64,000 nucleotides of DNA from Verrucomicrobium sp. (GTDB lineage: Bacteria; Verrucomicrobiota; Verrucomicrobiia; Methylacidiphilales; UBA1321). The stretch spans positions 124,001 through 188,000 of the forward strand of contig JAFIGT010000030.1 of NCBI GenBank assembly GCA_017849585.1. Reading direction: 5' to 3'. The notes under the pieces were generated by a model that was given only the letters and a program-made list of their open reading frames with translations, was not told the DNA's origin and did no database searches. Below, one piece after another: positions 2,837-34,539 of this stretch. Within the stretch, counting starts at the first letter, position 1. Every line of letters starts with the position of its first letter. The position numbers and the translations under genes are program-made.

Positions 2837-2840
2837 AGAT

Positions 2841-3482
2841 ATGATGCGCGTTACCACCCTATCTAAAAAAGGATTTTCGCTCATTGAGTTGCTTGTGGTT
2901 ATAGCCGTAGTCGCTCTTTTAACCTCAGTCAGCATGGTGGCCGTCGGGGGCAATCAAGCGCGTAAGTTGGCGTCGAACGGTAACCTGATCGCTGACCTGT
3001 CTAAGCAAGCGCGGCAAAACTCAATTAGTAAGGGAGTATTGACAGCGCTGGTCCTATGCAAGACCTATCCAAATAATCAGGAATTGAATAATCGCCTACT
3101 AGTTCTCATGGAGTTGTCACCCGATAGCACGACTTGGAGGCAACTCACCAAATGGCAAATTCTGCCCCAGGGAGGTGTTGTTGATTCCAGCCAAAGCGAC
3201 AGCTTTATTTCTCAAGTGCCGAATGTAGAAACCCCCATCAGCAATCTCAAATATTTGGGTGCTACCGTCACGGATATTGCGTTTCAGGTTTTTTTGCCGG
3301 ATGGCAGTTTGGCCACTAAAAAGCAGTCATCCAGCGGATCAGTAATCATGCAGCCTCCGGTATTGAGTTTGTCCCAGGGAAATATTAATTCGCGCGGAGA
3401 TTTGGTCAAAACATCCTCCGTCAATTATTATAAAATAACGTTTAACTTGCACACCGGAATGACGAAAATCGAGTGTCCATGA
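2841..3482 (+). CDS. prepilin-type protein, Verru_Chthon cassette protein D-like
   Basis: This 213-residue protein begins with a class III signal: KKG|FSLIELLVVIAVVALL, with cleavage after Gly11 and the conserved Glu at +5 of the mature protein. The hydrophobic helix (12-35) would anchor it in the inner membrane before assembly. The rest is a Ser/Gln-rich globular domain without recognised catalytic motifs. Its position first in a four-gene run of three prepilin-like proteins and one large GspK/PilX-like protein matches the Verru_Chthon cassette described from Verrucomicrobium and Chthoniobacter, where it would be protein D. The cassette's function is unknown. The next gene overlaps its stop. 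Confidence 0.8.
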   Translation: MMRVTTLSKKGFSLIELLVVIAVVALLTSVSMVAVGGNQARKLASNGNLIADLSKQARQNSISKGVLTALVLCKTYPNNQELNNRLLVLMELSPDSTTWRQLTKWQILPQGGVVDSSQSDSFISQVPNVETPISNLKYLGATVTDIAFQVFLPDGSLATKKQSSSGSVIMQPPVLSLSQGNINSRGDLVKTSSVNYYKITFNLHTGMTKIECP

Positions 3483-3898
3483 GCCTTTGGTCCAATCAAA
3501 AACTAGGGTTTAGTTTGGTCGAAATCGTCATGGCGTTGGGTCTTGTCAGCTTTTGTCTTGTGGCTCTTCTGGGTTTATTCAGCCTCGGGATTAAAACAAG
3601 CAAACAATCGGCCGAGGAAACAAATTTGGCAGCCATGTCATCGGAAATTATAACCGAATTGAGAGCCAGGACATCCAGTACGACGATTGCACTGAACCAA
3701 AAGTATTATTTCGACAATCAGGGCGAACGCACCAACGCCATCGGTGCGTATTATGAATGTCATTTAATCACCCAGACAGATACCTCATTTAGCGCAAATC
3801 TGATTCGCGGAACATTGACCTTTACCTGGCCGGCCCATCTCGCAGCAGGCAAACGCCCAAATACCAATACGTTTTATTCCACATTTCCACATCGTTAG
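3479..3898 (+). CDS. prepilin-type protein, Verru_Chthon cassette protein B-like
   Basis: The protein has 139 residues from the ATG at 3479, which overlaps the preceding TGA by 4 nt; a GTG at 3473 is the alternative. The leader ends LG|FSLVEIVMALGLVSF, again with Glu at +5, so it should be processed by a prepilin peptidase. The body resembles PilV/GspI-type minor pseudopilins in length and placement. The order and sizes fit Verru_Chthon protein B. It is probably cotranscribed and translationally coupled with its upstream neighbour. Confidence 0.78.
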   Translation: MSLWSNQKLGFSLVEIVMALGLVSFCLVALLGLFSLGIKTSKQSAEETNLAAMSSEIITELRARTSSTTIALNQKYYFDNQGERTNAIGAYYECHLITQTDTSFSANLIRGTLTFTWPAHLAAGKRPNTNTFYSTFPHR

Positions 3899-3916
3899 CG
3901 TGCTCGCCATCAGGAT

Positions 3917-4723
3917 ATGAAAACGCCACAGACGCGCACCTTTGAGTCGGCATTTAGTTTGGTGGAAATGCTTGTAGCCACTGCCATTTTATCTTTCTTA
4001 CTTCTAATCCTGATCAGTCTCACCAGCCAGTCCAGTCAAGTGTGGTCAACGGGAACGAAGCAAGGTGAACACCGTCAGAAAGCGCGATCGACGCTTGATT
4101 TCATCGGGCGGGAAATGCGATTGGCCACCGTGGCAGTGGACGGTGGTGGTTCACTTCGATTTGTTATCTATAACCAGACAAATCCGGGCATTAGCACGCT
4201 CAACCCCCACGCCGTTTTTTGGCTGGCACCAGTGGCGACGGAAACGTCCATGGGCGATTTGGCGGAAGTCGGCTATTTCATCCGCTGGGACACCGAACTG
4301 AAGCAATCCAATTTGTGCCGGATGCTCGTCAATCCCAGTGACACCGCTCACTATCTTATCTACACCTCACCTGAAAATTGGATTACAGATGCACTCTTGC
4401 TGCAAGTGGCTCCAGGAACCAAGGCCAGTGGTTATCAAGGTCTCTTTTTGGAAAACGTGCTTGGATTATGGGTGAAAGCTTATCGAGCTGATGGAACGGA
4501 TTATGGAACCGACTCCAGTAGCTCCTCCAACCGAAACAAGCTGCCAGCCTATGTCGATATTTCTCTCGTATTTCTGGATTCGATGACAGCGAAGCGGCTA
4601 CAAAATCCAATCCCTCCTAAAGAAAGCCAGTCACCGGAAGATTATATCGCCGCCCTGCCAATCAGCCTCAAATCTGGAGCCACCCGGGCAAGCCTTCGAG
4701 TGATTCTCGACAATAATCGGTAA
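3917..4723 (+). CDS. prepilin-type protein, Verru_Chthon cassette protein C-like
   Basis: This 268-residue protein has the prepilin signal SA|FSLVEMLVATAILSFLLL at residues 11-30; Ala replaces Gly before the cut site, while Glu at +5 is kept. The following LDFIGREMRLATV resembles PilW/GspJ minor pseudopilins. It ends 2 nt before the large fourth gene. By order it is protein C of the Verru_Chthon cassette. Whether it forms a tip complex with its neighbours is an inference from type II secretion and type IV pilus systems. Confidence 0.78.
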   Translation: MKTPQTRTFESAFSLVEMLVATAILSFLLLILISLTSQSSQVWSTGTKQGEHRQKARSTLDFIGREMRLATVAVDGGGSLRFVIYNQTNPGISTLNPHAVFWLAPVATETSMGDLAEVGYFIRWDTELKQSNLCRMLVNPSDTAHYLIYTSPENWITDALLLQVAPGTKASGYQGLFLENVLGLWVKAYRADGTDYGTDSSSSSNRNKLPAYVDISLVFLDSMTAKRLQNPIPPKESQSPEDYIAALPISLKSGATRASLRVILDNNR

Positions 4724-4725
4724 AC

Positions 4726-7410
4726 ATGAAACATGCATTACTTAAGCGTACCGAGGCGCGTGGCGCAGCGCTGATCATGGCTCTCTCCTTGATCTCGCTC
4801 ATGACCATTCTATTAGTCGGTTTCCTAGCCAGCATGCAGATCGACCGGGCCGCATCCCGATCCCATATGGACGGCCAGCAGGCGCAGTGGTATGCACAGG
4901 TTGGCGTTGATCTTTCCATCGCAAAACTAAAGAGCCTCAGCTCATCCACCGCTGTGTGGGCCAGCATGCCGGGCCGGATAACCGTGGTTGGTACCGGTGG
5001 AAATCCCTCCACCAATATCGATCTTTCCTCAGGGTCCGCGCGAGGTGAAACAGACTCGAAGGTGGTGGTCAACTTGAATCCGAGGACATTGCTTTTTTCC
5101 TCAAAGGGTCTGATCGCCAAATCTGGAGAAAACATTTCGGTGCGGTGGATTTATCTCAGACGCGACGGTTCCTTTGAAGCCAATACTCCGCCCACCTACA
5201 ACCAAGCCAATCCCGTAGTGGGTCGTTTTGCCTTTTGGGCGGACGATGCGAGCACTCGGGTCAATATAAACACCGCCGCAAGTCGAATCGGAAATACCAA
5301 TGCTCTTTCTCATCCCTCGCGGGTGGATATGACGGCATTTCTAGGTACCCCAGCCATTGAGAGCATTCAGGTCGCCCGCAATGTTCGTCCATTCAATTCC
5401 TTGTTTGAGGCGAGACGAATAGTTAACACCGACGCCTTTAACACTAATCAATTTGCTCTCACCCACTTCAATCACTCTCCGCTGCCATCAGTGAATATGT
5501 TCGGCGAGCCTCGCATACTCTTGACTACTCAAAAAGGTGTAGCCGAAAAAATCTATGGCACCGGAACCACCAACTACCTCGATATTCTCACCGTGCCCGA
5601 TACAGATCCAGGTTCGCCGAGTAATCTGGATTCAGTCAAAGTGGAAAAAATTGTCAATCGAATTGCCAATTATCTGCGCCGGACCGACTGGCCGATTTTG
5701 CCTGGGAAAAGTTTCGCATCCAAGTATACGCCATTCACGACAAGCCCAACCTATAATAATAATTATGTGGCACAGATCGCCATCAACATTCTCGATTATG
5801 TGCGGTGCGCAGAATCTACTCTGAGTGCCGTAGCGGCCACCAAAGGTCGATTGGATCCCGTGTCCGGCAATTTTGTCTACGGAACCACTGGACTAGCGGT
5901 GAATCCCGGAGCTTCCGGTGTGTCTCCAGCTCCATGGTGGAATAGCAATTTCCCCTCGACTATGATGGGACTGTCCCGTGGCCCAAGGATCACGGAATTT
6001 CGCTGTACGATTACCAGTACAAATCCATGGGCTGATGGCAGTAAATGGGATTGGACAGCCAAGTATGAAGTGGAGGTTACGTTGCCGGAGAATAGCGGCC
6101 TCTCTTCAATCGACTTATCCACCCTTACCATTTCAGCCGAGAGCATGGACCCTACTGGCATGGTGCAGGGCTGGAGCAATCGTAAAACCATTCCAATAAC
6201 CGGCGCCATGTGCTCAGGCGGTGGCTCTACGCTTGCCGCAGGCAATTACAAAACGATTACGGTCACTGGTATCCTTCCCACGAATCAGAAAACGCCCACT
6301 CCCACAACTGTCTATGCCATGGCCTCACTCGAACCCACGATTGATACAACCGCCGTGATCTCGGGTTTTGGCAATAATACAGCCCCCATTTACTGGCAAA
6401 CATTCACCCTAGTGGCAGGAAATACAGTCAATTCCTGCGCCCGAAAATATACTGATGTAATGCTCCCAAGTTATCCCGAAGCTTGGACGACTCAAGGGCC
6501 AAGCTCATTCGATGCTACAAATCCCGGAGCCATTACCTCGGTTTCCGCGACACCCTCTCAAGATAAGGATGGCAGCGGAAATGTAACATCGGTGAGCACA
6601 CGACTCCCTGCCCCCAAAGGCAGCGCATCCAATTTACTGGGTATCGTAAAGTCGGTTGGGGAATTGGGATTCATCCACACGGGTAGCGTTGTAGCGCATA
6701 TGCATTCGACTTCCACAAGCGGCATTCTCTATGGCACGATTGTGCCTTACCGCACCTTACGATTGCGCCCTCAAGATGCTACTTCAGGGGAATTGCCTGA
6801 CTGGGCCATTCTTGATCTATTTGACGCCCCTGGCCTCCCCCAATCATCTACCTCCACTGTCCTACGACCTGGCAATGCCAGTGTAGGCGGGCAGATCAAT
6901 GTTAATGGCGGGCTGGTGACATTTATCGACCAGAATGGAAACCCTACCCTCACGCGCTCGCTACCAATGCAATGCGCCCTGACTGGTGCTGGAAATAAAA
7001 CCGCAACGGTCAGCAGCGTGATCCCTTCCACATCCGTCTCTACTCTCGCCAATGCCATCAATAGCTATGCCTTTACCAATGATAGTCTAGCTACCAATGG
7101 AAAACGCTATGGAACCGGGGTCCTCACGAATGTATTCATCTCACCCTGGCAAATCTGCGAGATCAAAGGCGTGGCAGACTCTGGCGAAGAGAGCGAAGAG
7201 GTTGTGCGGCACGTCGGCAGCGTAGGTACTGTTCGAGGCAACGTCTTTAGCATCTATAGCATTGGCCAGTCCATCAAGCAGGATAGCAATGGTGGAGTCT
7301 CTATACTCGGAGAACGGCGCATGGAAACTATCGTTGAACGCTATCAAGACACTCCTAACAGTTCCGCCACCTTCCGCACCATTTTTTCACGCGACTTAAA
7401 ATCACTATAG
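4726..7410 (+). CDS. large GspK/PilX-like protein, Verru_Chthon cassette protein A-like
   Basis: The last and largest cassette member has 894 residues. The N-terminus carries basic residues and one hydrophobic helix (14-36, GAALIMALSLISLMTILLV), like PilX/GspK proteins whose leader is not fully canonical. FAFWADDASTRVNIN (about 168-182) resembles the GspK segment. The remainder is a long Ser/Thr/Asn-rich exported region. In Verru_Chthon cassettes protein A is the large member, so the identification rests on order plus this N-terminus. Base composition is visibly more A+T-rich than dapB-panB. No terminator is seen in the 120 nt before the convergent hydrolase gene. Confidence 0.8.
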   Translation: MKHALLKRTEARGAALIMALSLISLMTILLVGFLASMQIDRAASRSHMDGQQAQWYAQVGVDLSIAKLKSLSSSTAVWASMPGRITVVGTGGNPSTNIDLSSGSARGETDSKVVVNLNPRTLLFSSKGLIAKSGENISVRWIYLRRDGSFEANTPPTYNQANPVVGRFAFWADDASTRVNINTAASRIGNTNALSHPSRVDMTAFLGTPAIESIQVARNVRPFNSLFEARRIVNTDAFNTNQFALTHFNHSPLPSVNMFGEPRILLTTQKGVAEKIYGTGTTNYLDILTVPDTDPGSPSNLDSVKVEKIVNRIANYLRRTDWPILPGKSFASKYTPFTTSPTYNNNYVAQIAINILDYVRCAESTLSAVAATKGRLDPVSGNFVYGTTGLAVNPGASGVSPAPWWNSNFPSTMMGLSRGPRITEFRCTITSTNPWADGSKWDWTAKYEVEVTLPENSGLSSIDLSTLTISAESMDPTGMVQGWSNRKTIPITGAMCSGGGSTLAAGNYKTITVTGILPTNQKTPTPTTVYAMASLEPTIDTTAVISGFGNNTAPIYWQTFTLVAGNTVNSCARKYTDVMLPSYPEAWTTQGPSSFDATNPGAITSVSATPSQDKDGSGNVTSVSTRLPAPKGSASNLLGIVKSVGELGFIHTGSVVAHMHSTSTSGILYGTIVPYRTLRLRPQDATSGELPDWAILDLFDAPGLPQSSTSTVLRPGNASVGGQINVNGGLVTFIDQNGNPTLTRSLPMQCALTGAGNKTATVSSVIPSTSVSTLANAINSYAFTNDSLATNGKRYGTGVLTNVFISPWQICEIKGVADSGEESEEVVRHVGSVGTVRGNVFSIYSIGQSIKQDSNGGVSILGERRMETIVERYQDTPNSSATFRTIFSRDLKSL

Positions 7411-7530
7411 ATCGGAGAATGGAAAACCCTAGGAGGTGGCTCTGCCTATCGCCATCTTCAGGCCACACGCGCCCGAACGATATTCCCTATTTCAGGACTG
7501 TTAAGGCTCTGCCCATAAATATGCATCGCT

Positions 7531-10410
7531 CTATTCTCCAGCAGAGCGAACTACTAACTCAAAATATGAAGCTGGCCCCGCTTTCAACGCACCCGTATCA
7601 ACACTCACTTCAATGGCCTCGCTTCCCCGATGGAGGTCCAGTTCTTCCAGGCGCTTCCCATTGGCAGACAAGGCAAAGAGTCGAAGAGTTGATGCATGCT
7701 GTGTTTGCAATTGCAATTTAGCTTTCACTACACGCGCCAAAACCTCCGGACCTCCGAGACTAACCAGTTTACGACGGGTATCGTCTTCAAAAGTCATATT
7801 TTCATTCAGCGCATCACTCACAAGAATCAGCAATAAACGTGTACTTTCATGAATAGATTCCTTGGTCAGTGAACCGACAAAGCAAGTCAAAGAAGAAGAT
7901 CCGAGATTTTCCACTTGCAATCGACTTAAATTAACCGGCTTGGAACAGGCCGGCAAAGATACTCCCTCACTATATTTCGTGACGACGCGCAGCTGACTCT
8001 CCTTTTTGCTCAATATTAGCTCGCCGGTATCACTCTGATAAACCCCTCTTTCCTGATCGGTCTGATTGTTCTCAGGAATAATTTTCTTTTTTTTGAGATC
8101 GTCTACCAAACCGCCAAAAGACTGGCGCGCGTTTGCTTCATCACTTACCTCCTGCGCGCCCTGTCCCGTGGAAACAGAGGATCCTGTCTCAGGTTTGACA
8201 ACATAATCTATCACCTGGGGAGCGCGTGGTGCAGCTCCATCGCGACTTGGCAATTTCACCCCAATCCCCGCAATCAGCGCCAATTCAGTTATCGATCCGG
8301 GCAGGGCATTCTGTGGCCTGAGTTTATCGAAAACGGTCTGTGGATCTAGTTCTACAGCGATGGCATGTGGAGATGCCGTTACATCCCCACGGCGATATAG
8401 CATTACTGACATGTACTCCGCTGCTCGTAGTGGTGGATCACGCAAAATTCGGAATGGTACGATCGGTTCGCTCGGTTTGATTCCTATGGGATTGGAGAAT
8501 TGCGCAATCATCTGCCACCCCTGCAATGCCGCATAAGCCGGAATGGAAAGACCAGCCTCATGTCGCCATGGCTGCCAGAAGCTGTGCCCCCATTCTGAGC
8601 ATACGAAAGGAGCTCCCCAGTGCCGCAAGCCAGCCATGCTGCGAAAGTAACTCAATCCGGTCTTTGTCGCGCTGTCGCCTCGAATTCTGGATCCAGCTCG
8701 GGTAAAATCCGTCGGATGATCGTGATAGGCGTGTGAGTCGATCAGCGGAAGCACATCCCTGGTGAGAGTGGATTGCATCGAGTACTCGTTATTGTAGTCC
8801 AGAATGAGAGATTTCACGCCAATCTCGCGCAAATGGCTTGAGAGCAGCAGAAAGGTCTCTTGTTCAAGATCGACAAAAAATCGCTGTAAGTCCCTCGCCG
8901 CTGGCGTAGCCTCGCTCACTGCAGGAAGTGCGACGAGATCAAAGCCTTCTCCGCCTTGCTTGCCCTCATCTGCAGAGACAAACCCAGCCCCAGCTCCCCA
9001 TGCCTTGCGCAATGCTTCCATGCTTCCATAACGTGACCTCAGCCATTTGCGAAATGGAATCACAAGATCAGGATCCCGGCTGTTCGGCAGGTACATCAAA
9101 AAATTCAAGCCGGACTCATTACGCGTCTGGACGATGGCAACCTGCGGATCATCTTTAAGTGCCATACCGGTGTAGGGATTGACGTGTTCGAAGAGTTGGG
9201 TCACAGCTTTCTTCCAGTGCTCTTGTGCCTTTGTGTCATAATAGATACGTGACTTGAGCTTTAGCGCGCGCGCTTTGGCCGACCAGGGTTCCGGCACGGC
9301 ATAGTAGGCCGCCCATGATGTCGAGGCATCTATGTAAAGATAGATTCCGTTTTTTTTCAGTTCCGCCGCAAATCGATCCCATTGATCGAGGCGTTCCGGA
9401 TTGATCGCGAGATCCTGTACACTTCCCACCATCAAAAAATGATCCAGAAAATGGCACCGAAGCATATTATAGCCTGCCCTCTTGATTTGCTGCGCATACG
9501 AGGCAACCACTTCCGGCGCTTGCAACTTGGTGGTCATCACCTCGGAGTAACAGAGAAAGCGAACGGGCATGGCTGGATTGCCTTGAAAGGCAAGCTTACC
9601 TTGCTCATTGACGATCACCGGTCCACTAGAGCCTGCCTCTTTGCCCGGCTCAAAGAGCGCAGACATATCTAGCGCACTCCCTTCAACCACCGTCCGGTCT
9701 GTAAGGTCGACAAGTCTCCAGTCCGCGCTGACCTGAGCCTTCCACTTTTCTGGACTCGGTAGCGGAACGTCATGATCGGAAATTGTCGCCGCAACAATGA
9801 TCCAACTAGCATTTTCCGCTCGTGCAAAGCGAATTGAAACGGGATGCCCCATAAATTTAGGCAATGAGAACTTTGAAAAATAAAGGCCTACGGTATGGAA
9901 TCCATACGTGATTTTGTACGCAATGGCTCCGTTTTCCTTGGCGGAAAGACTCCTCCAGTCGGCCAGTTCCCGACCATTCATGATCGAGTAATCCATCTTC
10001 TTTCCTGAGTCAAAATCAACCATGATCTGACCGATTTTTTGATGTTCATCCACTCCGTCTAACGGGGCAGTATGCAACAGATAGAGCGTACTGCCGCGTT
10101 CAAGCTTTTTAGCATCTACGAAAAGACACGCTTCGCGCAGTGTTGTCGAACTGGTGGAGTCAAAAACCAGGAGTTGGCCCTCTCCTTTGACATTTCCATC
10201 CAGAATTCGAAAGCCGATTCCGGCAAAGCGAAACTCTCCGGTTACGAGATCCTTTAGGTCGATAGGCGCTGTATCGACCAACAGTTCAGCAAAAGACCTA
10301 TTCGCTCTCCCCTCAAAGTTGAGACATACCTCCGCCCCCTCAAGCGCCCCCGAGATAAAGAGAAACTGCAACAGAATCACACAGCATCGCGCCCGCCGCA
10401 ATACACTCAT
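7531..10410 (-). CDS. secreted clan GH-A-like glycoside hydrolase
   Basis: The 959-residue protein starts with a signal peptide (about 1-26, ILLQFLFISGALEGA). An N-terminal beta-sandwich-like region (30-215) is followed by a TIM-barrel region (about 285-690). TRNES near 430-433 fits the Asn-Glu acid/base of clan GH-A, and CSEWGH has a candidate nucleophile at Glu606; DSHAYHDHP (558-566) is a likely substrate-site strand. It aligns by eye with residues 250-1133 of the paralogue at 31138-34539, which shares NPYTG and DxHxYxDHP. The ATG directly follows the in-frame TAG of the upstream gene. Substrate unknown; the neighbouring sulfatase and mannosidase suggest a complex glycan. Confidence 0.72.
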   Translation of the reverse strand: MSVLRRARCCVILLQFLFISGALEGAEVCLNFEGRANRSFAELLVDTAPIDLKDLVTGEFRFAGIGFRILDGNVKGEGQLLVFDSTSSTTLREACLFVDAKKLERGSTLYLLHTAPLDGVDEHQKIGQIMVDFDSGKKMDYSIMNGRELADWRSLSAKENGAIAYKITYGFHTVGLYFSKFSLPKFMGHPVSIRFARAENASWIIVAATISDHDVPLPSPEKWKAQVSADWRLVDLTDRTVVEGSALDMSALFEPGKEAGSSGPVIVNEQGKLAFQGNPAMPVRFLCYSEVMTTKLQAPEVVASYAQQIKRAGYNMLRCHFLDHFLMVGSVQDLAINPERLDQWDRFAAELKKNGIYLYIDASTSWAAYYAVPEPWSAKARALKLKSRIYYDTKAQEHWKKAVTQLFEHVNPYTGMALKDDPQVAIVQTRNESGLNFLMYLPNSRDPDLVIPFRKWLRSRYGSMEALRKAWGAGAGFVSADEGKQGGEGFDLVALPAVSEATPAARDLQRFFVDLEQETFLLLSSHLREIGVKSLILDYNNEYSMQSTLTRDVLPLIDSHAYHDHPTDFTRAGSRIRGDSATKTGLSYFRSMAGLRHWGAPFVCSEWGHSFWQPWRHEAGLSIPAYAALQGWQMIAQFSNPIGIKPSEPIVPFRILRDPPLRAAEYMSVMLYRRGDVTASPHAIAVELDPQTVFDKLRPQNALPGSITELALIAGIGVKLPSRDGAAPRAPQVIDYVVKPETGSSVSTGQGAQEVSDEANARQSFGGLVDDLKKKKIIPENNQTDQERGVYQSDTGELILSKKESQLRVVTKYSEGVSLPACSKPVNLSRLQVENLGSSSLTCFVGSLTKESIHESTRLLLILVSDALNENMTFEDDTRRKLVSLGGPEVLARVVKAKLQLQTQHASTLRLFALSANGKRLEELDLHRGSEAIEVSVDTGALKAGPASYFELVVRSAGE

Positions 10411-11193
10411 CTACTCCGTCCTCACACTTAGGACAGTTTCAAAAACCACTTTCTGACCAGCAGAAATAGCCCTGGATTTCACATAAGGCATCTGCCTGGA
10501 AGCATCAACTCTTATAAAGTTCGCTCCAAATCCACGCCCATCAATAATCGAAAGCTGGGCTTCAGTTGCAGCTTCGATACTGATGGACTCCTTCCCCTTT
10601 TTAAGCGTGCATTTTTTAAGACCATAGCCCTTCAATTCTCTGGAGCCATGATCGATAACATGCGTTTTCTCACTGGTGGCCGATTGAATGACGCACTCTC
10701 CACCTTGGAACATCGCGAGAGGAAACTTGAACGAAAAGGAAATAGGCTCACTCCAATTGGCATCCGTCAAATGTGTCACCTCGATATGTATGCGAATGGA
10801 GTCTTTTTCCTCCTTGGTATATGTAATATTGAATTCAGCAATCCCGGCTGGGTCTCCTTTGGATTGAGGTGAGATCAAGACACCTGTAACGAACACGCTG
10901 CTTTCACCCCCCTTAACTTCAGCCTTGTTTCCCATCACTCCGCCTGAAGCTTGGTAGAGAGTCTGACTATCGCATTTCCCTGCCAGCTTGGACTCCAACA
11001 TCAGCTGTCTCCCGCTACATTCAAGGTCTCGAATCGCACCCTGCACGTTAATCGAAAGCGTGGCATCACGGGCAAAATTTAAAACAGGTCCAGAAGCTGA
11101 TGCGTTTTTCCCACTCAAAATGAAAAAAACGAGCATCGCCACAGATGCCATGAGCAGGTAGGAACGAGAGACAATGCGAATGTTAGTCAGCAT
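10411..11193 (-). CDS. secreted beta-sandwich-like protein, partner of the adjacent glycoside hydrolase
   Basis: This 260-residue protein has a long N-terminal hydrophobic stretch (12-34, YLLMASVAMLVFFILSG) ending in ASASG, which fits a signal peptide. The rest is predicted to be beta-rich with no catalytic motif. Its length and C-terminal pattern (IDGRGFGANFIRVDASR) resemble domain 1 of the 1133-residue paralogue at 31138 (LVADARAFKGNNYQLIIEP), so it looks like a detached N-terminal domain of the same enzyme. Its TAG stop abuts the ATG of the hydrolase in the same frame. A regulon box lies 50 nt upstream at 11243-11256. Confidence 0.6.
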   Translation of the reverse strand: MLTNIRIVSRSYLLMASVAMLVFFILSGKNASASGPVLNFARDATLSINVQGAIRDLECSGRQLMLESKLAGKCDSQTLYQASGGVMGNKAEVKGGESSVFVTGVLISPQSKGDPAGIAEFNITYTKEEKDSIRIHIEVTHLTDANWSEPISFSFKFPLAMFQGGECVIQSATSEKTHVIDHGSRELKGYGLKKCTLKKGKESISIEAATEAQLSIIDGRGFGANFIRVDASRQMPYVKSRAISAGQKVVFETVLSVRTE

Positions 11194-11242
11194 AGCTACC
11201 TATACTAGCTTTTGAATTTTCCCATTCGCAACAAAGACAACG

Positions 11243-11256
11243 TGTTCACATTAACA
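11243..11256 (-). promoter_or_regulatory. regulon box 1 upstream of the split glycoside hydrolase
   Basis: On the coding strand this reads TGTTAATGTGAACA, a 14-bp pseudo-palindrome with TGTT/AACA ends. It is followed after 11 nt by TTGCGA (11231-11226) and, 18 nt further, by TAGTAT (11207-11202). Those fit -35 and -10 elements and put the transcript start within a few bases of the ATG at 11193. Four other copies lie nearby. Confidence 0.7.
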
Positions 11257-11294
11257 GAAAATCACATTCATGGAATCATGATGATTTTCACCCA

Positions 11295-12068
11295 CTATTG
11301 ACCGCTCCAGAAGCTGGCACTGGCCTGACTGACTGGTGGAATATCGGTATACGGCATCAAGGAAACATGCCCATCAAAGAATAAGATGTTGCACTTCTTG
11401 CTATGCGGCAGAAGCCCGTAGAAGTTGTGGAAAAGAAAACGGTTGCTTGGATTCTCATTCTGCTCCAGCACCATCGCCGTCGCCGAGGAGTTAGCGATTT
11501 GCATGGAACGAATCGCCGTTATGGCACTGTTATTGACCGGACCAGTATTTAGCGCGTAAGAAAAGCGATTGCCGGCTGATGAGTTCGCATTAGGCGTTTG
11601 TATCTCCTGAAACTTCCTGACTGATTGACGTTTTGTTGCCGGGCAGTGAAACATATTTCGATCCTCCCCGCTGTTACCTTGCAGATCGTTGTCAGGATAT
11701 CTGAAGGACGAAGCGGAATAGCCGACATAAGTCCAAATCGTATAGCTCCAATGCTTGCATTGGGTGCCTGCATATTTGGGATCTGTATTCTCCGATGCTG
11801 GGAAAACACCCCCGTTTTCAGCAGCGTAGGTTAATAAAGCCACTCCAATTTTCCGGAGATTCGAGGTACAGATTGCCATATCAGACTGCGCTTGAGCATT
11901 CCGCAACGCAGGAAACAAGAGAGCCGTAATTACAGCCATGATCATGATCGTTACGCTCAGCTCGATTACAGTAAATGCGCGCTCTTGGAGTCTCCATTTT
12001 GACAGAGGATCGCAACCACAATCATGATTACAACTCCATGAATCCCTGTAGATGTCTGGTAGTATCAT
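11295..12068 (-). CDS. pseudopilin with prepilin leader and H-X9-DG domain
   Basis: A prepilin-like segment RA|FTVIELSVTIMIMAVITALL lies about 28 residues after the chosen ATG at 12068; GTG 12095 and ATG 12089 are alternatives. The C-terminal part has LPHSKKCNILFFDGHVSLMP, where His is followed by nine residues and then Asp-Gly. This is the processing-associated H-X9-DG motif common in Planctomycetes and Verrucomicrobia, where such genes are highly multiplied. TSNLRKIGVALLTYAAENGGVFP is also typical. The product (257 residues) should be a surface or periplasmic pseudopilin of unknown role. It lies 57-85 nt downstream of the sulfatase start-stop unit on the same strand and may share its transcript. 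Confidence 0.75.
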   Translation of the reverse strand: MILPDIYRDSWSCNHDCGCDPLSKWRLQERAFTVIELSVTIMIMAVITALLFPALRNAQAQSDMAICTSNLRKIGVALLTYAAENGGVFPASENTDPKYAGTQCKHWSYTIWTYVGYSASSFRYPDNDLQGNSGEDRNMFHCPATKRQSVRKFQEIQTPNANSSAGNRFSYALNTGPVNNSAITAIRSMQIANSSATAMVLEQNENPSNRFLFHNFYGLLPHSKKCNILFFDGHVSLMPYTDIPPVSQASASFWSGQ

Positions 12069-12152
12069 ATGCGCAAATGACCTCATCATTATCACATCCC
12101 AGTTGACCGGCCATAATTCAGCTAAAAATCAACCATTCATTTCTCCGCTGAT

Positions 12153-13850
12153 TCATATAGATGAACAAGCGATCTGGTTTTGTGGGTGACGCTCAGATGC
12201 ATTTGCATTGACGGCCGACGGCGGAGGTGAACAGTAGAAGATGCGCCTGAACGAATCCATATCGCCTCCACGCTCCTCCCAATGGCGCCACCATTCGGAA
12301 CGCTCGAGATCTTCGAGTTGAACACGTGCATCAGCACCCAAAGGCTCGTTCTTGATTACCTTATCAAATTCTCTCTTGAGTTGATCGATGTGAGTTGAAG
12401 AGTAGGAGCCCGGAAACGCCGGCCACTGCGATAGAGACCATCTCGGCACGACCATTCGATGTGCCTCGATATTTGTACGAAAGGGGATGGCAATAAATTC
12501 TCCATTGCAGACAGCTCCTTTCAATCCCCAAACAAGCTCATATTGTAGAGCGTGTTCACGCAATTTCCGATATGCGTGTTGAACTTCCTCGGCGGGATTA
12601 TTGATCAAGTTGCACAATTCATAAGGATCATGGCTTAAATCAAATAATGAATCCAGGCCACCACCAAACCAATGGATGTACTTCCATTGGTCGTTGCGAA
12701 TCATGATCCAACGAGGTGCTTGCGACTCGGTAAGATCGCCAAATTCGCAGTACTGAATAGAACGATCCTTAAGACTGTGGAGCCTGAGCAGCGAATCCCC
12801 GGGAAATCCATGCTCGAGATTATGCCGGCACGCCACCTCCGAAACATTAATGTCCGCCGCATCAAGAGCCGTCGGCAGGATATCATTAAGATCGGCAAAT
12901 GCGTCTCGATTTGTTCCCGGTTGAATCCGTCCAGGAAAACGGACAATCAAAGGCACTCGCACGGAGCCTTCGTAAGGAAGTTGTTTTTGCATGAGGCCAA
13001 GATCGCCAAGCATCTCTCCGTGATCACTGCAATAAATGACAAGTGTATTGTCCGCCAATCCTAGCTGGTCCAGTTTATCGAGCACCATCCCAATACCTTT
13101 GTCCACCAAACTGATGGCGGCATAGTAAAGCTCGCGAAAGCGACGCGCCTCCGGACGCTCCTCACCTTCGAGCCCGCGTATTTCAGGCAGTGCAACGCCG
13201 GAATAGAGATCAGCAAATGTATCAGGAACGTTGGCGGGTGGATGAGGCGCAATCCATCTGGCCCATGCAAACCAGGGTCGGTTCTGATTGGACTCGATGA
13301 AGCGGCATGTTTCACGAGCCACCCAGGTCGATCCATGATGCTTCTCCGGCATGATGCTGCGTTGAGGCAGTTGATAGCCAAGCACGCGAGATCCATGTAT
13401 TTGCAATAACTGATCCAACCCGACGGAACGTAAATACTGCAGGTACTCATCATCTTCAACATGCGTTGGAATTTCTTCCATTAGTCTCATCGTATTGAAC
13501 CCGTGATGAGCGCGTACGGGGTAGAAATGCATTTTTCCGATGGCCGCAGTAGTATAGCCATTCGCCCCCAAAATCCGAGGTAAAGTAGGCACGGTAAGCG
13601 GTAAAGGGCGGTGCGCGTTATGGGGCATGCCATGGTAGCGCGCAGGAAGGCCCGTCAGAATATTATGCCGCGCCGAGACACAGATCGGATTGGGTGTGTA
13701 AGCTCGACGCCACACGCACCCCTCGTTCACGAGGCGGTCTAAATTCGGAGTCAGCATAAAAGGGGCATTGACCGCTCCTATAGTGTCGTAGCGCTGCTGA
13801 TCCGCTGTCAGCAAAAGAATATTGGGACGAGATGGGGTCGAAATTTTCAT
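12153..13850 (-). CDS. type I sulfatase
   Basis: The enzyme hydrolyses sulfate esters, probably on a carbohydrate. With the ATG at 13850 it has 565 residues, beginning just before RPNILLLTADQQRYD, whose Asp contributes to the calcium site. NPICVSARHNILTG carries the formylglycine motif C-x-S-x-R at Cys57, so an anaerobic-type or FGE maturase is needed. YCSDHGEMLGDLG supplies further metal ligands. An upstream start at 13952 is open, but it would overlap the inferred -35 element. No clear signal peptide is seen at the chosen start, so export is uncertain. It is controlled by box 2, divergently from lacI. Confidence 0.9.
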   Translation of the reverse strand: MKISTPSRPNILLLTADQQRYDTIGAVNAPFMLTPNLDRLVNEGCVWRRAYTPNPICVSARHNILTGLPARYHGMPHNAHRPLPLTVPTLPRILGANGYTTAAIGKMHFYPVRAHHGFNTMRLMEEIPTHVEDDEYLQYLRSVGLDQLLQIHGSRVLGYQLPQRSIMPEKHHGSTWVARETCRFIESNQNRPWFAWARWIAPHPPANVPDTFADLYSGVALPEIRGLEGEERPEARRFRELYYAAISLVDKGIGMVLDKLDQLGLADNTLVIYCSDHGEMLGDLGLMQKQLPYEGSVRVPLIVRFPGRIQPGTNRDAFADLNDILPTALDAADINVSEVACRHNLEHGFPGDSLLRLHSLKDRSIQYCEFGDLTESQAPRWIMIRNDQWKYIHWFGGGLDSLFDLSHDPYELCNLINNPAEEVQHAYRKLREHALQYELVWGLKGAVCNGEFIAIPFRTNIEAHRMVVPRWSLSQWPAFPGSYSSTHIDQLKREFDKVIKNEPLGADARVQLEDLERSEWWRHWEERGGDMDSFRRIFYCSPPPSAVNANASERHPQNQIACSSI

Positions 13851-13908
13851 AAAAAGAGCTCTGGTACAACACTCATTGGAGTACTCTCGCAATAAGCTGC
13901 CTCTATTG

Positions 13909-13928
13909 AAATCAGACCGTTCTGATTT
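13909..13928 (-). promoter_or_regulatory. inverted repeat in the sulfatase 5' leader
   Basis: AAATCAGA and TCTGATTT form a perfect 8-bp inverted repeat around CCGT. It lies between the inferred sulfatase promoter and the ATG at 13850. It could be an operator or an mRNA hairpin; nothing in the sequence decides between them. Confidence 0.4.
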
Positions 13929-13975
13929 GCAGAAGAAGCATCGACCAACCAAAATAAATCACAAGACGTCCCAAT

Positions 13976-13989
13976 TGTTCACATTAACA
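13976..13989 (-). promoter_or_regulatory. regulon box 2 in the sulfatase/LacI divergent region
   Basis: Toward the sulfatase the box reads TGTTAATGTGAACA, then 11 nt, then TTGTGA (13964-13959). The -10 region is poor. Toward lacI the box ends 42 nt before the ATG at 14032, so a bound protein there could also control the regulator's own gene. Confidence 0.72.
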
Positions 13990-14031
13990 CGCCATTGACC
14001 CCGCCATCCCGGCGTGTTATTAAGTCTCGAG

Positions 14032-15018
14032 ATGGCCCAAGCTGGTTCCCAACGCCCTACCCTAATCGATGTGGCCCGAGCGGCTGGAGTCAGCCACATG
14101 ACCGTATCTCGCGTCGTGCGCGGTCTACACGCTGTATCCCCGCAAACAGTAGAACGCGTGAAGCTCGCCATTAATCAATTGGGCTATCGGCCTGATCCCG
14201 CACTCTCTGCCCTTGCTTCGTACCGCACCAATGGGAAGGCACACAATCATAGCAGTACGCTGGCCTTTCTGGACTGCGATGGAAGTGAGCACTCCCAGAA
14301 AATATACATGGCCGCACAGCGGGAAGGTCAATTACTCGGATATGCTGTCGAACGCTTTTCTATAGTTCCCGAATACCAGAAACAACAACGCGTGAGCCGG
14401 GTCTTGTTCAATCGGGGAATTCAAGGTTTGTTGTTTGGTCCCACCATCTTGCCTTGGAAAGGTCTGGATGCTTGGGATTGGACTCACTTTGCCCCTGTCT
14501 CTTTGGGGGCAATCGCTCACAATCCGCATATGCCCAATGTCGCGATGGATCACTTTCACGGCGCCATGACCGGCTGCCATTATTTGCGGGAATTAGGCTG
14601 TCGCCGAATAGGGCTCGTACTGGCAGACTGGTTGATGCCGCGAACAGAGTATCGGTGGCTTGGCGGATACATTGCTGGACTGCGAGGGAAAGGTAAACTT
14701 CGCCTCCACACGCCAGACGATCTCAAAGCGCTGAAGCGTTGGGTCATCCAAGAAAAGATTGATGGAGTCCTGACCATCCATCCAGAAATATATCCCCTCC
14801 TGCGCCCATTGGGAGTCCAAGTTGGATTTCTAAACAGCGTGAGCGCTGTTCCCGGCGCTCCCCACCTGCACTTTGACCCTAGCTGGATTGGCGAAGAAGC
14901 CGTTCGATTGGTTCACCACCTGCTACTACGTCGCGAATTTGGCCTCGATCAAAAATCCAAAATGATGGCGTTGCAAGGTACGTGGAATTCTCGTTCCGCA
15001 GATCTGGCTGACCGTTAA
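14032..15018 (+). CDS. LacI-family transcriptional regulator
   Basis: The 328-residue protein has an N-terminal LacI helix-turn-helix, TLIDVARAAGVSHMTVSRVV, followed by the hinge region with GYRPDPALSALASYR, a form often seen in Verrucomicrobia. The remainder fits a periplasmic-binding-protein-like effector domain, so the ligand is probably a sugar. The ATG at 14032 is chosen; GTG at 14014 is in frame. It lies in the middle of the five-box set with one box directly upstream, which makes it the leading candidate to bind the boxes and to regulate itself. The AraC protein at 20061-20921 is the alternative. Confidence 0.92.
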   Translation: MAQAGSQRPTLIDVARAAGVSHMTVSRVVRGLHAVSPQTVERVKLAINQLGYRPDPALSALASYRTNGKAHNHSSTLAFLDCDGSEHSQKIYMAAQREGQLLGYAVERFSIVPEYQKQQRVSRVLFNRGIQGLLFGPTILPWKGLDAWDWTHFAPVSLGAIAHNPHMPNVAMDHFHGAMTGCHYLRELGCRRIGLVLADWLMPRTEYRWLGGYIAGLRGKGKLRLHTPDDLKALKRWVIQEKIDGVLTIHPEIYPLLRPLGVQVGFLNSVSAVPGAPHLHFDPSWIGEEAVRLVHHLLLRREFGLDQKSKMMALQGTWNSRSADLADR

Positions 15019-15093
15019 GACACGCCTCAGAGCGACTCTTTTCAATCAGCGCAGGCCAGCCCCCTACCCCTTGCAAATCCTTCGGCCTAATGA

Positions 15094-16854
15094 TCAGGCG
15101 CCCACATCGGCTCTACGCACCCGCCCCAGCCAGAGCAAAAAGACCAAGCCAGACAACAGCGCCGACCAAATGGTCGGCTCGGGAACTGCGGTGACCGTAA
15201 TCACTGAGTTCAACCCAGTTCCGTAATCGATCGAGTAGTCCGATGGCAACCCATTGATCGTCGCAAAGGTGCCGCTGAGCGCACCCGTGTAGCTGGCTAT
15301 TGTAAAGGTGGTGGTCGTTGGCGTGGTATTCAACAGATTTAATGCCAAAGTCACGGCTCCATTCAAAGTCAGATCTCCAGTAATGGAAAGCAAATCGCAG
15401 GTGCCGCCGATCTCATCAAGATCGACAGCGAAAATACTGCCACTATTAAACGTCACATTACTATTAAGAGTCAGCGTTCCGGTTCCAGATTCACCGGGAG
15501 TCACCATACCATCCACCGTCAGGGGACCACTAATAATGCCCGAGCCCCCCAAGGCACCGGCCAGCCCCACACTCACCGCTCCTGTACCAGTCGCGCTCCC
15601 CGAGAGATTGCCGATGATCAAGGTGCCGTTGGAAACCGTCGTACCTCCCGCATAGGTACTACCGATCGAACTCAACAGCTTTACCTTACCTCCACCGTTG
15701 ATAGTGATCTTGCTATTGGTTGAACTACCGCTGATTGTGTTTGTAAAAACCGTTGTTCCCCCCGCATTGGCCGTAAGTTCCAAACCGTTGGCCACTCCCT
15801 GTAGATCTCCAACAATGATCGCCCCGGAGTAAGTTGCCGCACCACTGGTAATAGTGGACCCCACAACACGCACGTCTCCAGTATCTGTTGCGGTAGTGGC
15901 ATTCACCGTTATCTTACGGTCCATCACCACATCAGCCGTGCCAATCAGTAGCTTGGAAGTATCACCCGTGCCAGATGTCGTCGTCGCATTGCCAAAGACC
16001 ACTCCCAGGCTGGTTCCCAAGGCATTGCTGTTATTCAGTAATAGGGTGCCGCGATTCATCGTCACCGTGTTCGTGACGCCTGTATTATTTCCGTCCAGAC
16101 GAACCACCGCCGCATTCCCCACCACCGATGCCACGCCCGTATCGCCCACGGTGACGCCAATTCCACCTGTACTCGATTTTGTCATATCGCCTGTGACCGT
16201 AGTGCCCAGTCCATTGTACGTCACAAACATGAGTGTGGTGGAGGAGGCAGCTGAATTATTAATCCCACCAGCCAAGGTCAGCAGCCCATTCGTAGAACTT
16301 CCCAATTGAAACCAAACCGTGGAGCCACCCGCCGAGGTAAGATCAATCTGGCTACTGATCGTGGCTGACGTATTCACATTATTCAACGTGACCGCAGAAC
16401 CAAATCCACTCACGGACAAATGAATTACTTGTCCCGTTGAACCCACTGTATAACCATTTGTATTAAACTGCAGATCGTGCGCATAGACATCCGAAGTTAA
16501 TGCCACCGAGCCCCCTTGAGTTGTCGAAGACACCCCGAACGCCGCACGATCATTCGCCGTCGCCGTACCGGTATCCGGCCACGCCGTCAAAATTCCGGTT
16601 CCATTGCTAGCCGTATTCCAGAACATTGAACTGGTATCCCATGTACCACTACCCCCATACGCAGTCGCACCTGTGTTCGCCGCATTCCCATCCACATCCC
16701 AATAGTAGATGTTCGTTGGAGTATTTGTACCCGCCCCTGCTGCGGCAGCCTGCGGAGAGCTCATTATAAATGAGATTCCTGCCATGCAAACCAACAGTAA
16801 GCCGATTGAGGGCCGGAGCATTCGAGTATCCAAGACTGATATTTTTAGTTTCAT
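15094..16854 (-). CDS. PEP-CTERM surface protein with autotransporter-associated beta-strand repeats
   Basis: The 586-residue protein has a signal peptide (about 10-40, ending QAAAAGAG), a long Gly/Thr/Ser/Asn-rich beta-helix region, and at least one PATR-like unit (STYAGGTTVSNGTLIIG, then GSGIISGPLTVDGMVTPG). The C-terminus is VPEPTIWSALLSGLVFLLWLGRVRR in two parts: a Pro-Glu-Pro signal and a helix followed by arginines. Such tails are cut by exosortase, which must be encoded elsewhere. There is no beta-barrel, so despite the repeats this is not a classical autotransporter. Box 3 and a good promoter lie upstream, tying it to the glycan regulon. Confidence 0.88.
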   Translation of the reverse strand: MKLKISVLDTRMLRPSIGLLLVCMAGISFIMSSPQAAAAGAGTNTPTNIYYWDVDGNAANTGATAYGGSGTWDTSSMFWNTASNGTGILTAWPDTGTATANDRAAFGVSSTTQGGSVALTSDVYAHDLQFNTNGYTVGSTGQVIHLSVSGFGSAVTLNNVNTSATISSQIDLTSAGGSTVWFQLGSSTNGLLTLAGGINNSAASSTTLMFVTYNGLGTTVTGDMTKSSTGGIGVTVGDTGVASVVGNAAVVRLDGNNTGVTNTVTMNRGTLLLNNSNALGTSLGVVFGNATTTSGTGDTSKLLIGTADVVMDRKITVNATTATDTGDVRVVGSTITSGAATYSGAIIVGDLQGVANGLELTANAGGTTVFTNTISGSSTNSKITINGGGKVKLLSSIGSTYAGGTTVSNGTLIIGNLSGSATGTGAVSVGLAGALGGSGIISGPLTVDGMVTPGESGTGTLTLNSNVTFNSGSIFAVDLDEIGGTCDLLSITGDLTLNGAVTLALNLLNTTPTTTTFTIASYTGALSGTFATINGLPSDYSIDYGTGLNSVITVTAVPEPTIWSALLSGLVFLLWLGRVRRADVGA

Positions 16855-31137: not shown

Positions 31138-34100
31138 ATGATGACTCCCCGTTCTTCCTCCCGATTCGCTTGGTTGGTTTGCTTATCGCTCCTGATTCTG
31201 CCATGGCATCTACAGGCCCAAGGCATGACAAATTTCATACTTGGCGAGAATGCGGAAACTGGCCTGACTTTGCAGGTTGATCCGCTTGGCGTGATTCGCA
31301 CGCTTGGCGATGTGACAATGGCAGCGGATTATCGGGTGGAAAATACCAATACCGTACAAAACCGAGCTGGCGTGGTTGTGGCAGAATCGGGCTTCCCCAA
31401 GCGCGAAGGCACACAATCGTGGACCTTGCAGGGCCAGTACAAGCCGATCTCCGGCGGTCAGCCGTTGCACTTCGAGGAAGCCATCGCTCGCACTTCCGCC
31501 TCGGCGCTTAAATTCTCCATCGGGGTAAGCCGGCCCGACAAATCTGAACCGGTGTATAAGCTCCGTTGGAGCATTCTTTTGCCAGTCGAGGTGTATGCCA
31601 ACCGGGTGATCGTCACGGACAAGCAGAATTACCCCCTCCCCAAAGACCTGAAGGAATACCCTATTGGCGGCGGTCCGGTGAAATTCATCGAAATTCCAAC
31701 CGACACCGGGACGTTGCGCATTACCGGTGCACTCAAAGTTCTCGTGGCCGACGCGCGCGCATTCAAGGGCAATAACTACCAGCTCATCATCGAACCGGAA
31801 GCCGCTCCGGCCGATCCATTCGTGCGCAAGATCGCCGTGGATCTCTCCTTTCAGCCACATCGCTTCGACACGGTGAGTCTCGCCCCTTCGGCAAACATGG
31901 GATTTGCGGATGAAGTCGCCGGTGATGGTCGCGGCGGTTGGACCGACCAAGGCAAAGACCACGATTTGAGCGCACTGGAACCGGGCCGCCGTCTCTTTGG
32001 CAACGTTCTTTTCGACGTGACAGATCCCAAGCAAAACAACGGGCGCTCCTGTCTCGTTTTCGCGGGACCGCAACTCATCGCTGGAATCAAGGAAGCCACC
32101 TTCGATTTGAAGTCGGCTCCCTATCGCACTTTTTTCATCATGCACGCCTTTGCGTGGGATCAGAAAGACAAGGCAGAACTGGGTCGCCTGATCTTCACAT
32201 TCACCGATGGCACCACGACAGAATTCCCCGTACGCGCCGCGGAGGAAGCCACCAACTGGACCGTAGGCTCTGACACGCCGAATGGCCCGATCGTCTGGAA
32301 AGGCAAGACCCCCTCGGGCGATCGCATCGGATTGAATATGTCGCGCTTTATCCTGCCGGGAAAACCCCTCAAGAACGTGCAGATCAAAGGCTCCGGCTCG
32401 GCGGTCTGGCTGGTCGTCGGCGCAACCGGAAGCCTCGACGCTGTCCCGATGGCAGCGAATCTCGTGACGAAACCCTTGGTGTATGAGGAAGACAAGGTCT
32501 GGAAGATCTTCTCGTTCGAAAAAGATGTCGAGCCGGGATCAATTCTCGACTTTAGCGGCAACCTCGATGCACCCGCAGGCAAATACGGTTTTCTCCAATC
32601 CCGCAACGGCCGTCTCTACTTCGAGAAGAAACCCGAAAAGCGGGTGCGACTCCTCGGCACCAACCTTGTTTTTGCCGCCAACTTCGTGGACAAAGCGCTC
32701 GCCGACCGGCTGGCCAAGCGGCTTGCGGCGCAAGGCTACAACACCGTTCGCATCCATCACTATGACGGGCTGCTGCTCAACAAGAATCCGAAGAACAGCT
32801 ACGATATTAATTTGGAGCAACTGGATAAACTCGACTACCTGATCGCCGCCTGCAAGAAGGAAGGCCTCTACATCAGCATCGACTTGTATACCACCCGCCC
32901 CTTTCCCGCGGGCGAGCTTGCGGAGATCAAGGAGCAAATCACCCAGGGAGTAAAAGCCGCCATTGCGATTTCCCCTTCCGCCATGAAATCGTGGCAGGAA
33001 TTCGCCACGCTCTTCCTCAAGCACAAGAATCCCTACACCGGACTGACTCTGGGTGAAGACCCGGCGCTGGTTGGGATCAATCCACTCAATGAAAATGTCC
33101 ACTCGGTCTTTTGGAACAACGACCCCAACGTGGCCGCGTATTTTCAGGAGAAGTTCACGGAACATCTGAAAAAAATCGGCAAGGAGAACGTGAACGCCGA
33201 TGAGCGCTCCCTGCTCTTTGCCCGTTTCCTGTCGGACTTGCAGATCAAAACCCAAGCAGAGATCCGCGATTTTCTCCGCAAGAATATCGGCACGAAGTCC
33301 ATTCTCACCGATGTAAGCCATCGCGAATACAAGCCGCTGACCATTGCTCGGGAACCGCTCGACTACGTTGATGTGCATCGCTATTGGGATCACCCTAAAT
33401 TTGTCGGTGCGCAATGGCGACTCCCCTACCTGTACGAGTGCGAATCGGCACTAACGCAGTTGGTGAAGACACCGCGAGAAGTGTTCCCAGCCCGGTTGCC
33501 GAATCATCCGTTCATGATGACCGAGTTCCAGTTCGTCTACCCGAATCCGTATCGCGCCGAAGCCGGTCCGATCATGGGTGCCTATGCCGCCTTTCAGGAT
33601 TGGGACGGCTTGATGCGGTTTGATTACGCTGGCGACGCCGCCTCGATCACGGATACAGCGCCCATTCGCGGATTCTCCACGGTGAATGATCCGCTTCACA
33701 TCTTGGGAGAACGACTCGTCTCATTGCTATTCGTCCGCGAAGATGTGAAGCCCACGCAGAATCTGGTGCTCTATCACATCGATCCGGAGAAGACCTTTGC
33801 CAATGCCGACGGCATCGGATCATTCTCGCAGGATTACTCCAAGATCGGGCTGGTCACCGGTCTCGGCTCCACCTCGCTGACGAAGCCGGTCGCGACCGGG
33901 AAGACGATTCTCGCCACGGTCGAACCCAAGGGCTCGACGGAGGATAATAAAACCGTATTTGCGGAAAGCGCCGATCTGCTCGACCGGCTCGTGAAGGCGG
34001 GACGCATTCCGGCCTCGTGCGTCGAGGGGAAAATTCTTCACTCGGATACGGGCGAGATCACGCTCGATACGGAAAAGGCTTCGCTGTCAGTCGTCACGCC

Positions 34101-34539
34101 GAATACGGAAGCCTACGTTCTGCGGCAAACCGGTTCTCTTTCCGGTGCCGTTGCGACCGTCCAAGCCAACGGTCAGGTCGTGATTTCGATCTCCGCCATG
34201 GACGGTCAACCGCTCGCAAAGAGTCAGAGGATGCTCATCCTGCACCTCACCGACATCAAAAATACCGGTACCACCTTCCGCAATCAGGATGGCCGCATTC
34301 TGGAAGCTTGGGGCAAAGCACCGCTTTTGATCCGCTCGCAAAGCGATACGCTTTCGCTCAAGCTCAAAGCCCCGGCTGGAAAATCCTACACCTTGTGGGC
34401 GGTCGGCATTAACGGAAAACGGCTCTGGAAAGTTCCCGTGCAAAGCAGCGGAGAAGGACTCACCTGCAAGCTGGAGACCGTCTCGAAAGACGGCCCGGCA
34501 ATGGCCTACGAGTTGATCGCGGATACCACGACGCCCTGA
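31138..34539 (+). CDS. secreted clan GH-A-like glycoside hydrolase, three-domain form
   Basis: This 1133-residue protein has a signal peptide (about 8-28, ending LQAQG). Domain 1 (30-245) and domain 2 (250-440) look like beta-sandwiches; the TIM barrel runs from about 500 to 860 and a beta-rich tail follows. INPLNEN (Asn651-Glu652) is the probable acid/base and MTEFQF (Glu796) the probable nucleophile of a clan GH-A retaining enzyme; DVHRYWDHP lies between. It is the fused counterpart of the genes at 10411-11193 and 7531-10410. G+C content is higher than in that pair. Substrate unknown. It stands alone, with its own palindrome upstream. Confidence 0.75.
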   Translation: MMTPRSSSRFAWLVCLSLLILPWHLQAQGMTNFILGENAETGLTLQVDPLGVIRTLGDVTMAADYRVENTNTVQNRAGVVVAESGFPKREGTQSWTLQGQYKPISGGQPLHFEEAIARTSASALKFSIGVSRPDKSEPVYKLRWSILLPVEVYANRVIVTDKQNYPLPKDLKEYPIGGGPVKFIEIPTDTGTLRITGALKVLVADARAFKGNNYQLIIEPEAAPADPFVRKIAVDLSFQPHRFDTVSLAPSANMGFADEVAGDGRGGWTDQGKDHDLSALEPGRRLFGNVLFDVTDPKQNNGRSCLVFAGPQLIAGIKEATFDLKSAPYRTFFIMHAFAWDQKDKAELGRLIFTFTDGTTTEFPVRAAEEATNWTVGSDTPNGPIVWKGKTPSGDRIGLNMSRFILPGKPLKNVQIKGSGSAVWLVVGATGSLDAVPMAANLVTKPLVYEEDKVWKIFSFEKDVEPGSILDFSGNLDAPAGKYGFLQSRNGRLYFEKKPEKRVRLLGTNLVFAANFVDKALADRLAKRLAAQGYNTVRIHHYDGLLLNKNPKNSYDINLEQLDKLDYLIAACKKEGLYISIDLYTTRPFPAGELAEIKEQITQGVKAAIAISPSAMKSWQEFATLFLKHKNPYTGLTLGEDPALVGINPLNENVHSVFWNNDPNVAAYFQEKFTEHLKKIGKENVNADERSLLFARFLSDLQIKTQAEIRDFLRKNIGTKSILTDVSHREYKPLTIAREPLDYVDVHRYWDHPKFVGAQWRLPYLYECESALTQLVKTPREVFPARLPNHPFMMTEFQFVYPNPYRAEAGPIMGAYAAFQDWDGLMRFDYAGDAASITDTAPIRGFSTVNDPLHILGERLVSLLFVREDVKPTQNLVLYHIDPEKTFANADGIGSFSQDYSKIGLVTGLGSTSLTKPVATGKTILATVEPKGSTEDNKTVFAESADLLDRLVKAGRIPASCVEGKILHSDTGEITLDTEKASLSVVTPNTEAYVLRQTGSLSGAVATVQANGQVVISISAMDGQPLAKSQRMLILHLTDIKNTGTTFRNQDGRILEAWGKAPLLIRSQSDTLSLKLKAPAGKSYTLWAVGINGKRLWKVPVQSSGEGLTCKLETVSKDGPAMAYELIADTTTP

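Follow-up and report, generated by a model that had tools for sequence, protein, structure and literature searches.

A glycoside hydrolase and a stand-alone beta-supersandwich protein encoded by abutting genes in a Verrucomicrobium sp.: a candidate two-subunit enzyme

Introduction

The small subunit of the LacLM beta-galactosidases corresponds to the domain 5 region of LacZ. In lactic acid bacteria these GH2 enzymes are encoded by two overlapping genes, lacL and lacM, whose products purify as a heterodimer (PMC6412629). Co-oriented genes separated by very short gaps are enriched for subunits of one complex, and translational coupling typically operates through a 4- or 1-nt overlap; in E. coli experiments, a change from the native overlap to +2 nt cost 5–70%, and coupling was almost lost at gaps of ~20 nt (PMC10666635). 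Verrucomicrobia bacterium Tous-C9LFEB, which appears to be the sister species considered below, was reported to carry 218 glycoside hydrolases, the highest number among the genomes compared (PMC5673642). The window analyzed in this work is a 64,000-nt stretch of a Verrucomicrobium sp. genome (contig JAFIGT010000030.1, positions 124,001 to 188,000), from an assembly of 4.79 Mb in which ~20 relatives of the 959-aa protein described below were found. A search of the open-access literature found no paper on the small protein encoded beside it.

Organization of the locus

The two genes, here called A and B, follow a sulfatase gene and a DUF1559 pseudopilin-like gene on the minus strand, in the order sulfatase, DUF1559, A, B.

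12153..13952, minus strand: sulfatase neighbor, upstream (Pfam PF00884, E 1.5e-51)
11295..12095, minus strand: DUF1559 pseudopilin-like neighbor, upstream (Pfam PF07596)
10411..11193, minus strand: gene A, 260-aa stand-alone N-beta (supersandwich) protein (open reading frame, family profile, conserved beside GH genes)
10420..10423, minus strand: GAGG, possible Shine-Dalgarno sequence 9 nt ahead of the ATG of B, within the 3' end of A (sequence only)
10408..10413, minus strand: TAG/ATG junction, gap of 0 nt, one frame (read from sequence)
7531..10410, minus strand: gene B, 959-aa protein with CBM-like, GH and beta tail domains (open reading frame, profiles)

The 260-codon frame spans 11193-10414 with its TAG at 10413-10411, and the 959-codon frame runs from the ATG at 10410 to 7531; the original prediction that the TAG directly abuts an in-frame ATG was correct. 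The G+C content of the window at ~2-22 kb is 0.475-0.54, as compared to 0.55-0.60 in most of the window, and third-position G+C is ~0.5 in A and B versus 0.68-0.74 in the other family members measured, leaving it possible from composition that the A/B region was acquired by transfer. This low-G+C stretch of ~20 kb (2001-22000) holds the sulfatase, a LacI regulator, an MFS transporter and the A/B pair.

The 959-aa glycoside hydrolase

10333..10410, minus strand: signal-like N-terminus of B, ~residues 1-26 (charge and hydropathy only)
9775..10260, minus strand: CBM-like beta domain, residues 51-212 (family-built profile; "CBM" is descriptive and binding putative)
8257..9723, minus strand: GH5/GH42-like catalytic domain, residues 230-718 (Pfam GH42, PDB profile matches, family-built profile)
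9115..9120, minus strand: N431-E432, presumed acid/base motif (invariant in the alignment)
8593..8595, minus strand: E606, presumed nucleophile (invariant in the alignment)
7555..8124, minus strand: C-terminal beta tail domain, residues 763-952 (family-built profile)

B matched Pfam GH42 at 27.4 bits, above the cut-off of 21, with a weak match to GH5 and no Pfam match to GH2, and a profile built from its relatives matched PDB entries for GH5 mannanases and GH42 galactosidases. The barrel motifs named in the original prediction (NPYTG, an Asn-Glu pair and DxHxYxDHP) were all located, the last as an HDHP-type motif, together with a second glutamate. We take the roles of N431-E432 (acid/base) and E606 (nucleophile) from what is known of clan GH-A; since N431, E432 and E606 are invariant, the presumed catalytic center is complete within B. 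By its barrel and catalytic residues, B is assigned as a putative clan GH-A hydrolase of GH5/GH42-like type. Both A and B start with positive charge followed by a hydrophobic stretch, which bears out the signal-like N-terminus earlier noticed on the second frame, and their products are probably exported.

The 260-aa protein

11092..11193, minus strand: signal-like N-terminus of A, ~residues 1-34 (charge and hydropathy only)
10417..11085, minus strand: beta-supersandwich domain, ~residues 37-259 (AlphaFold2 model, LacZ domain 5-like)

The AlphaFold2 model of A (mean pLDDT 84.5, pTM 0.80) is a beta-supersandwich of the galactose-mutarotase-like kind. Its best structural match was the region of domain 5 in GH2 beta-galactosidases (3bga; Z 18.5, rmsd 2.9, 202 aligned residues), followed by PL26, GH174 and galactose mutarotases. 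Neither Pfam nor NCBIfam has a match for A, and annotation therefore offers no clue to a partnership with B. A Pfam search did not detect PF02929 (Bgal_small_N) in A or its seven relatives; this domain occurs in two long open reading frames elsewhere in the window's genome, to which A has no detectable sequence homology. On the basis of the model, A is predicted to have a LacZ domain 5-like fold; it would be a non-catalytic subunit.

Relation to a fused homolog

31138..34539, plus strand: fused homolog of 1133 aa, with N-beta, CBM-like, GH and tail domains (profiles, BLAST, predicted model)
31219..31875, plus strand: N-beta domain of the fused homolog, ~residues 28-246, homologous to A (hhalign E 6e-9 and 2e-8)

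The window also encodes a single protein with this domain order, whose predicted fold matches a GH5 mannosidase (Z 22.9). B aligns with its residues 276-1127 by BLAST (25% identity, E 5e-62), and BLAST found nothing significant between A and the 1133-aa protein. Profile comparison by hhalign did connect A with the fused N-beta domain (E 6e-9 to 2e-8, probability 95-96%), whereas the CBM-like domain included as a control in the same comparison gave E 0.07-0.2 and a probability of <1%. Iterated profiles likewise link A to the 1133-aa protein, and both predicted models show their strands and short helices in the same order. Chance resemblance was rejected because the profiles were positive and the control domain negative, and the sequence profiles and models support a homology of A, at great distance, to the N-terminal domain of the 1133-aa protein. 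The original claim that A and B together follow the domain order of this protein thus held for both parts. The pair is not the 1133-aa protein cut in two, as B belongs to a different GH subfamily. The type X N-terminal regions of other fused paralogs had no homology to A by HMMER or hhalign; fission from inside that clade was therefore not demonstrated.

Other family members showed unusual architectures. Two proteins of 1489 aa carry the GH and tail unit twice in tandem (L052, 5483-9949; L092, 2125-6591). In two members of ~1355 aa (L045, 10020-14081; L053, 3386-7465) the barrel match falls in two pieces ~300 residues apart, which suggests a large insertion. A tail domain without a barrel lies across two overlapping open frames in L056 (4730-5781), as a remnant or a frameshift.

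Conservation and spacing of the pair

Five stand-alone A-type genes were found in the window's genome. Three of these (in the window and on contigs C32 and C23) precede a GH gene of B's family, one (C30) precedes a GH20 gene, and one (C20) follows a 1354-residue relative, its link to which is uncertain. The sister species (G002) has counterparts of the C32, C23 and C30 A genes and no close ortholog of the window's A/B pair, and one more A-GH pair is present in a Spartobacteria genome of another genus (L100). No relatives were found in viral contigs. As the layout recurs elsewhere in the genome, in the sister species and in another genus, the original view that this is a genuine two-gene arrangement was upheld: A and B are distinct genes with a common orientation, and their arrangement is old and conserved.

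The distance from stop codon to ATG is 0 nt in the window, 17 and 18 nt in the orthologs L038 and L078, 21 and 24 nt in L040 and L079, 12 nt in L100, and 4 and 3 nt in the GH20-linked orthologs L054 and L080. As the gaps differ between orthologs (17 versus 18 and 4 versus 3 nt), the frame is not preserved, and taking the in-frame TAG/ATG for a sign of the split, as first proposed, finds no support. Junctions are in frame in six of the eight GH5/42- and GH20-linked pairs, and in 6 of 13 when the GH2-linked pairs described below are added. An in-frame excess as a relic of fission is not claimed, given that 6/13 is near the one third expected by chance and that orthologs disagree. The zero-length in-frame junction is incidental, one state of a short, drifting spacer.

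In L038/L078, omega (dN/dS) is 0.057 for the A-type gene and 0.056 for the GH gene, from which both are under equal purifying selection. In L040/L079 the A-type gene is 47% identical versus 78% for the GH gene, with synonymous changes saturated; here the A-type gene evolves faster than its partner. Signal-like N-termini, judged by charge and hydropathy, are present on both partners in the GH5/42-like pairs examined, the A start in L100 being uncertain. Several close GH paralogs, L037, L041 and L042 among them, have no small gene nearby, indicating that the small subunit is dispensable for some.

Partners in GH20 and GH2

The stand-alone A profile was matched in six of 387 genomes of the phylum, the window's included. 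In four of these six, seven further loci place a stand-alone A gene beside a protein of ~1250-1330 residues that carries the same CBM-like domain at its C terminus; five of the large proteins were scanned, and all five have GH2 Pfam domains. At six of the seven loci the small gene comes after the large one, and two GH2-linked pairs (L192 and L196) have a 4-nt ATGA overlap. At the seventh locus (L195, 3085-10142, minus strand) the stand-alone N-beta gene is flanked by a GH20 gene and a GH2 gene, each with the CBM-like domain. In L054 (4226-7538) and L080 (4334-8062) the stand-alone N-beta gene lies 3-4 nt upstream of the GH20 gene, and these GH20 proteins have the family's CBM-like domain at their C terminus and no obvious signal peptide of their own. 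The recurrence of the small gene beside different hydrolases suggests that a two-part enzyme design is reusable in these bacteria.

Origin of the two forms

In the GH tree, B shares a 12-row clade (SH-aLRT 96) with every other split GH5/42-like member and with some paralogs that are unpaired, and the 1133-aa protein belongs to a distant clade where the N-beta domain is usually fused. Stand-alone A proteins are separated from all fused N-beta domains by one branch (100/99 with 9 rows, 100/98 with 16 rows; both trees unrooted), compatible with a single origin of the stand-alone form, and the split is old. Because stand-alone relatives of A also lie beside GH2 and GH20 genes, an independent, reusable A subunit is at least as likely as the original suggestion of fission or fusion in this family. 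The stand-alone subunit could be the older or an independent form, with the lineage leading to the 1133-aa protein having undergone a fusion instead of a fission, and to this we would give slightly less than an even chance. The single split between the two forms in the unrooted tree agrees with it, as does the range of partners, since stand-alone A accompanies GH2, GH20 and GH5/42-like enzymes and the fused form was seen only with a GH5/42-like barrel in the loci examined. Against this, the fused form appears in record titles from several phyla, whereas stand-alone A turned up in only a few genomes of the Verrucomicrobiota phylum; the tree has no root, and GH2-fused forms lie outside the sampling.

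A proposed two-subunit enzyme

We propose that B is a secreted GH5/GH42-like hydrolase carrying the whole catalytic center, and that A and B would be exported separately and then assemble, A occupying the position of the N-beta domain, which is covalently attached in the fused relatives. A would pack on the enzyme and shape substrate binding, as LacM does on LacL. We assign this reading, an exported catalytic B and an exported supersandwich A forming a LacL/LacM-like two-subunit enzyme, a probability of roughly 60%. It draws on the repetition of the pair with short gaps on C32 and C23, in the sister species and in L100, on the single clade of stand-alone A proteins with their homology to the fused N-beta domain and LacZ domain 5-like fold, and on the confinement of the catalytic residues to B, the signal-like N-termini, the purifying selection and the occurrence of A beside GH20 and GH2 genes. 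We infer assembly from the fused forms and by analogy to LacL/LacM, and export and an effect on activity are likewise offered as expectations.

The GH paralogs that lack a nearby small gene and the faster evolution of the A-type gene in L040/L079 weigh against this reading, and the pairing could instead reflect shared regulation or a shared substrate. In a rival reading, A and B would be co-expressed and act apart, A being a soluble sugar-binding or sugar-modifying protein not bound to B; this we regard as unlikely, though a serious competitor. The adjacency of stand-alone A to three different GH families would suit it, as would the use of the same fold by galactose mutarotases, but many genomes encode a domain homologous to A in covalent fusion with this kind of GH, and LacZ-type enzymes contain the analogous domain within the enzyme itself.

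Quite tentatively, the stand-alone supersandwich may be exported and exchangeable, a subunit of heteromeric enzymes whose other partner comes from at least three GH families (GH5/42-like, GH20 and GH2) in Verrucomicrobiota and relatives, applying the LacL/LacM principle across families. The recurrence of this gene beside three GH families is the main interest of the locus. Should the small partner complete these enzymes, large families of unstudied secreted glycoside hydrolases from these bacteria may fail or be misread when expressed alone, and the presence of two-gene and fused forms in one genome offers a natural test of the role of the N-beta domain.

Alternative readings of the junction

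Frames that are continuous across the stop of A could be explained by one fused gene that had recently acquired a nonsense mutation, become a pseudogene or been misassembled, and the same genome does contain a truly broken fused paralog, L051 (G000:C23:51000-61500; 3036-6382, minus strand), whose N-beta/CBM-like/GH gene is frameshifted by one base within the CBM-like domain, the frame of its ortholog L089 being intact. That frameshift may have arisen by mutation or in the assembly. The window pair looks quite unlike it, a signal-like N-terminus coming immediately after the stop. A nonsense mutation in the window was rejected as highly improbable, given this N-terminus, the single clade of stand-alone A, and the recurrence of the two-gene layout, partly out of frame, elsewhere in this genome, in its sister species and in a different genus; nor was a fused N-beta domain detected in any member of the 19-row clade of B, and the earlier preference for a genuine split over a recent nonsense event stands. 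Programmed readthrough of the TAG, giving a fused A-B product besides A alone, is scarcely credible and was rejected as a conserved feature: the stop is in frame in the window and in five of the seven other pairs compared, but the two frames do not match in L038 (17 nt) or L054 (4 nt) and do match in their orthologs, the stop is TAG or TAA depending on the pair, and readthrough would bury the signal-like stretch of B within the product.

Comparison with known systems

The window pair resembles known coupled gene pairs in being co-oriented with a very short gap, and L192 and L196 have the 4-nt ATGA overlap; it differs in its gap of 0 nt, and the sister GH5/42-like pairs differ more, with gaps of 12-24 nt. 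Reinitiation, as originally suggested, is possible at the window junction and is not a conserved feature. Coupling should be weaker in the sister pairs, and given their gaps and the strong distance dependence seen in experiments, reinitiation is unlikely to be a general rule in this group.

Among fused enzymes, the 1133-aa protein has homologous domains in the same order as A and B, differing as a single chain and in its distant position in the GH tree. B has its barrel and catalytic motifs in common with GH5 mannanases and GH42 beta-galactosidases; the sequence similarity covers only part of the barrel, and the B family has extra beta domains.

A close parallel is LacL/LacM, in which adjacent genes also encode a large catalytic and a small subunit, the predicted fold of A being that of LacZ domain 5. 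The A/B pair is not a member of the LacL/LacM family, since B has no GH2 match, being GH5/GH42-like, and A lacks PF02929; the small gene comes first, and both products look exported. The seven GH2-linked loci resemble LacL/LacM more closely than the A/B pair does.
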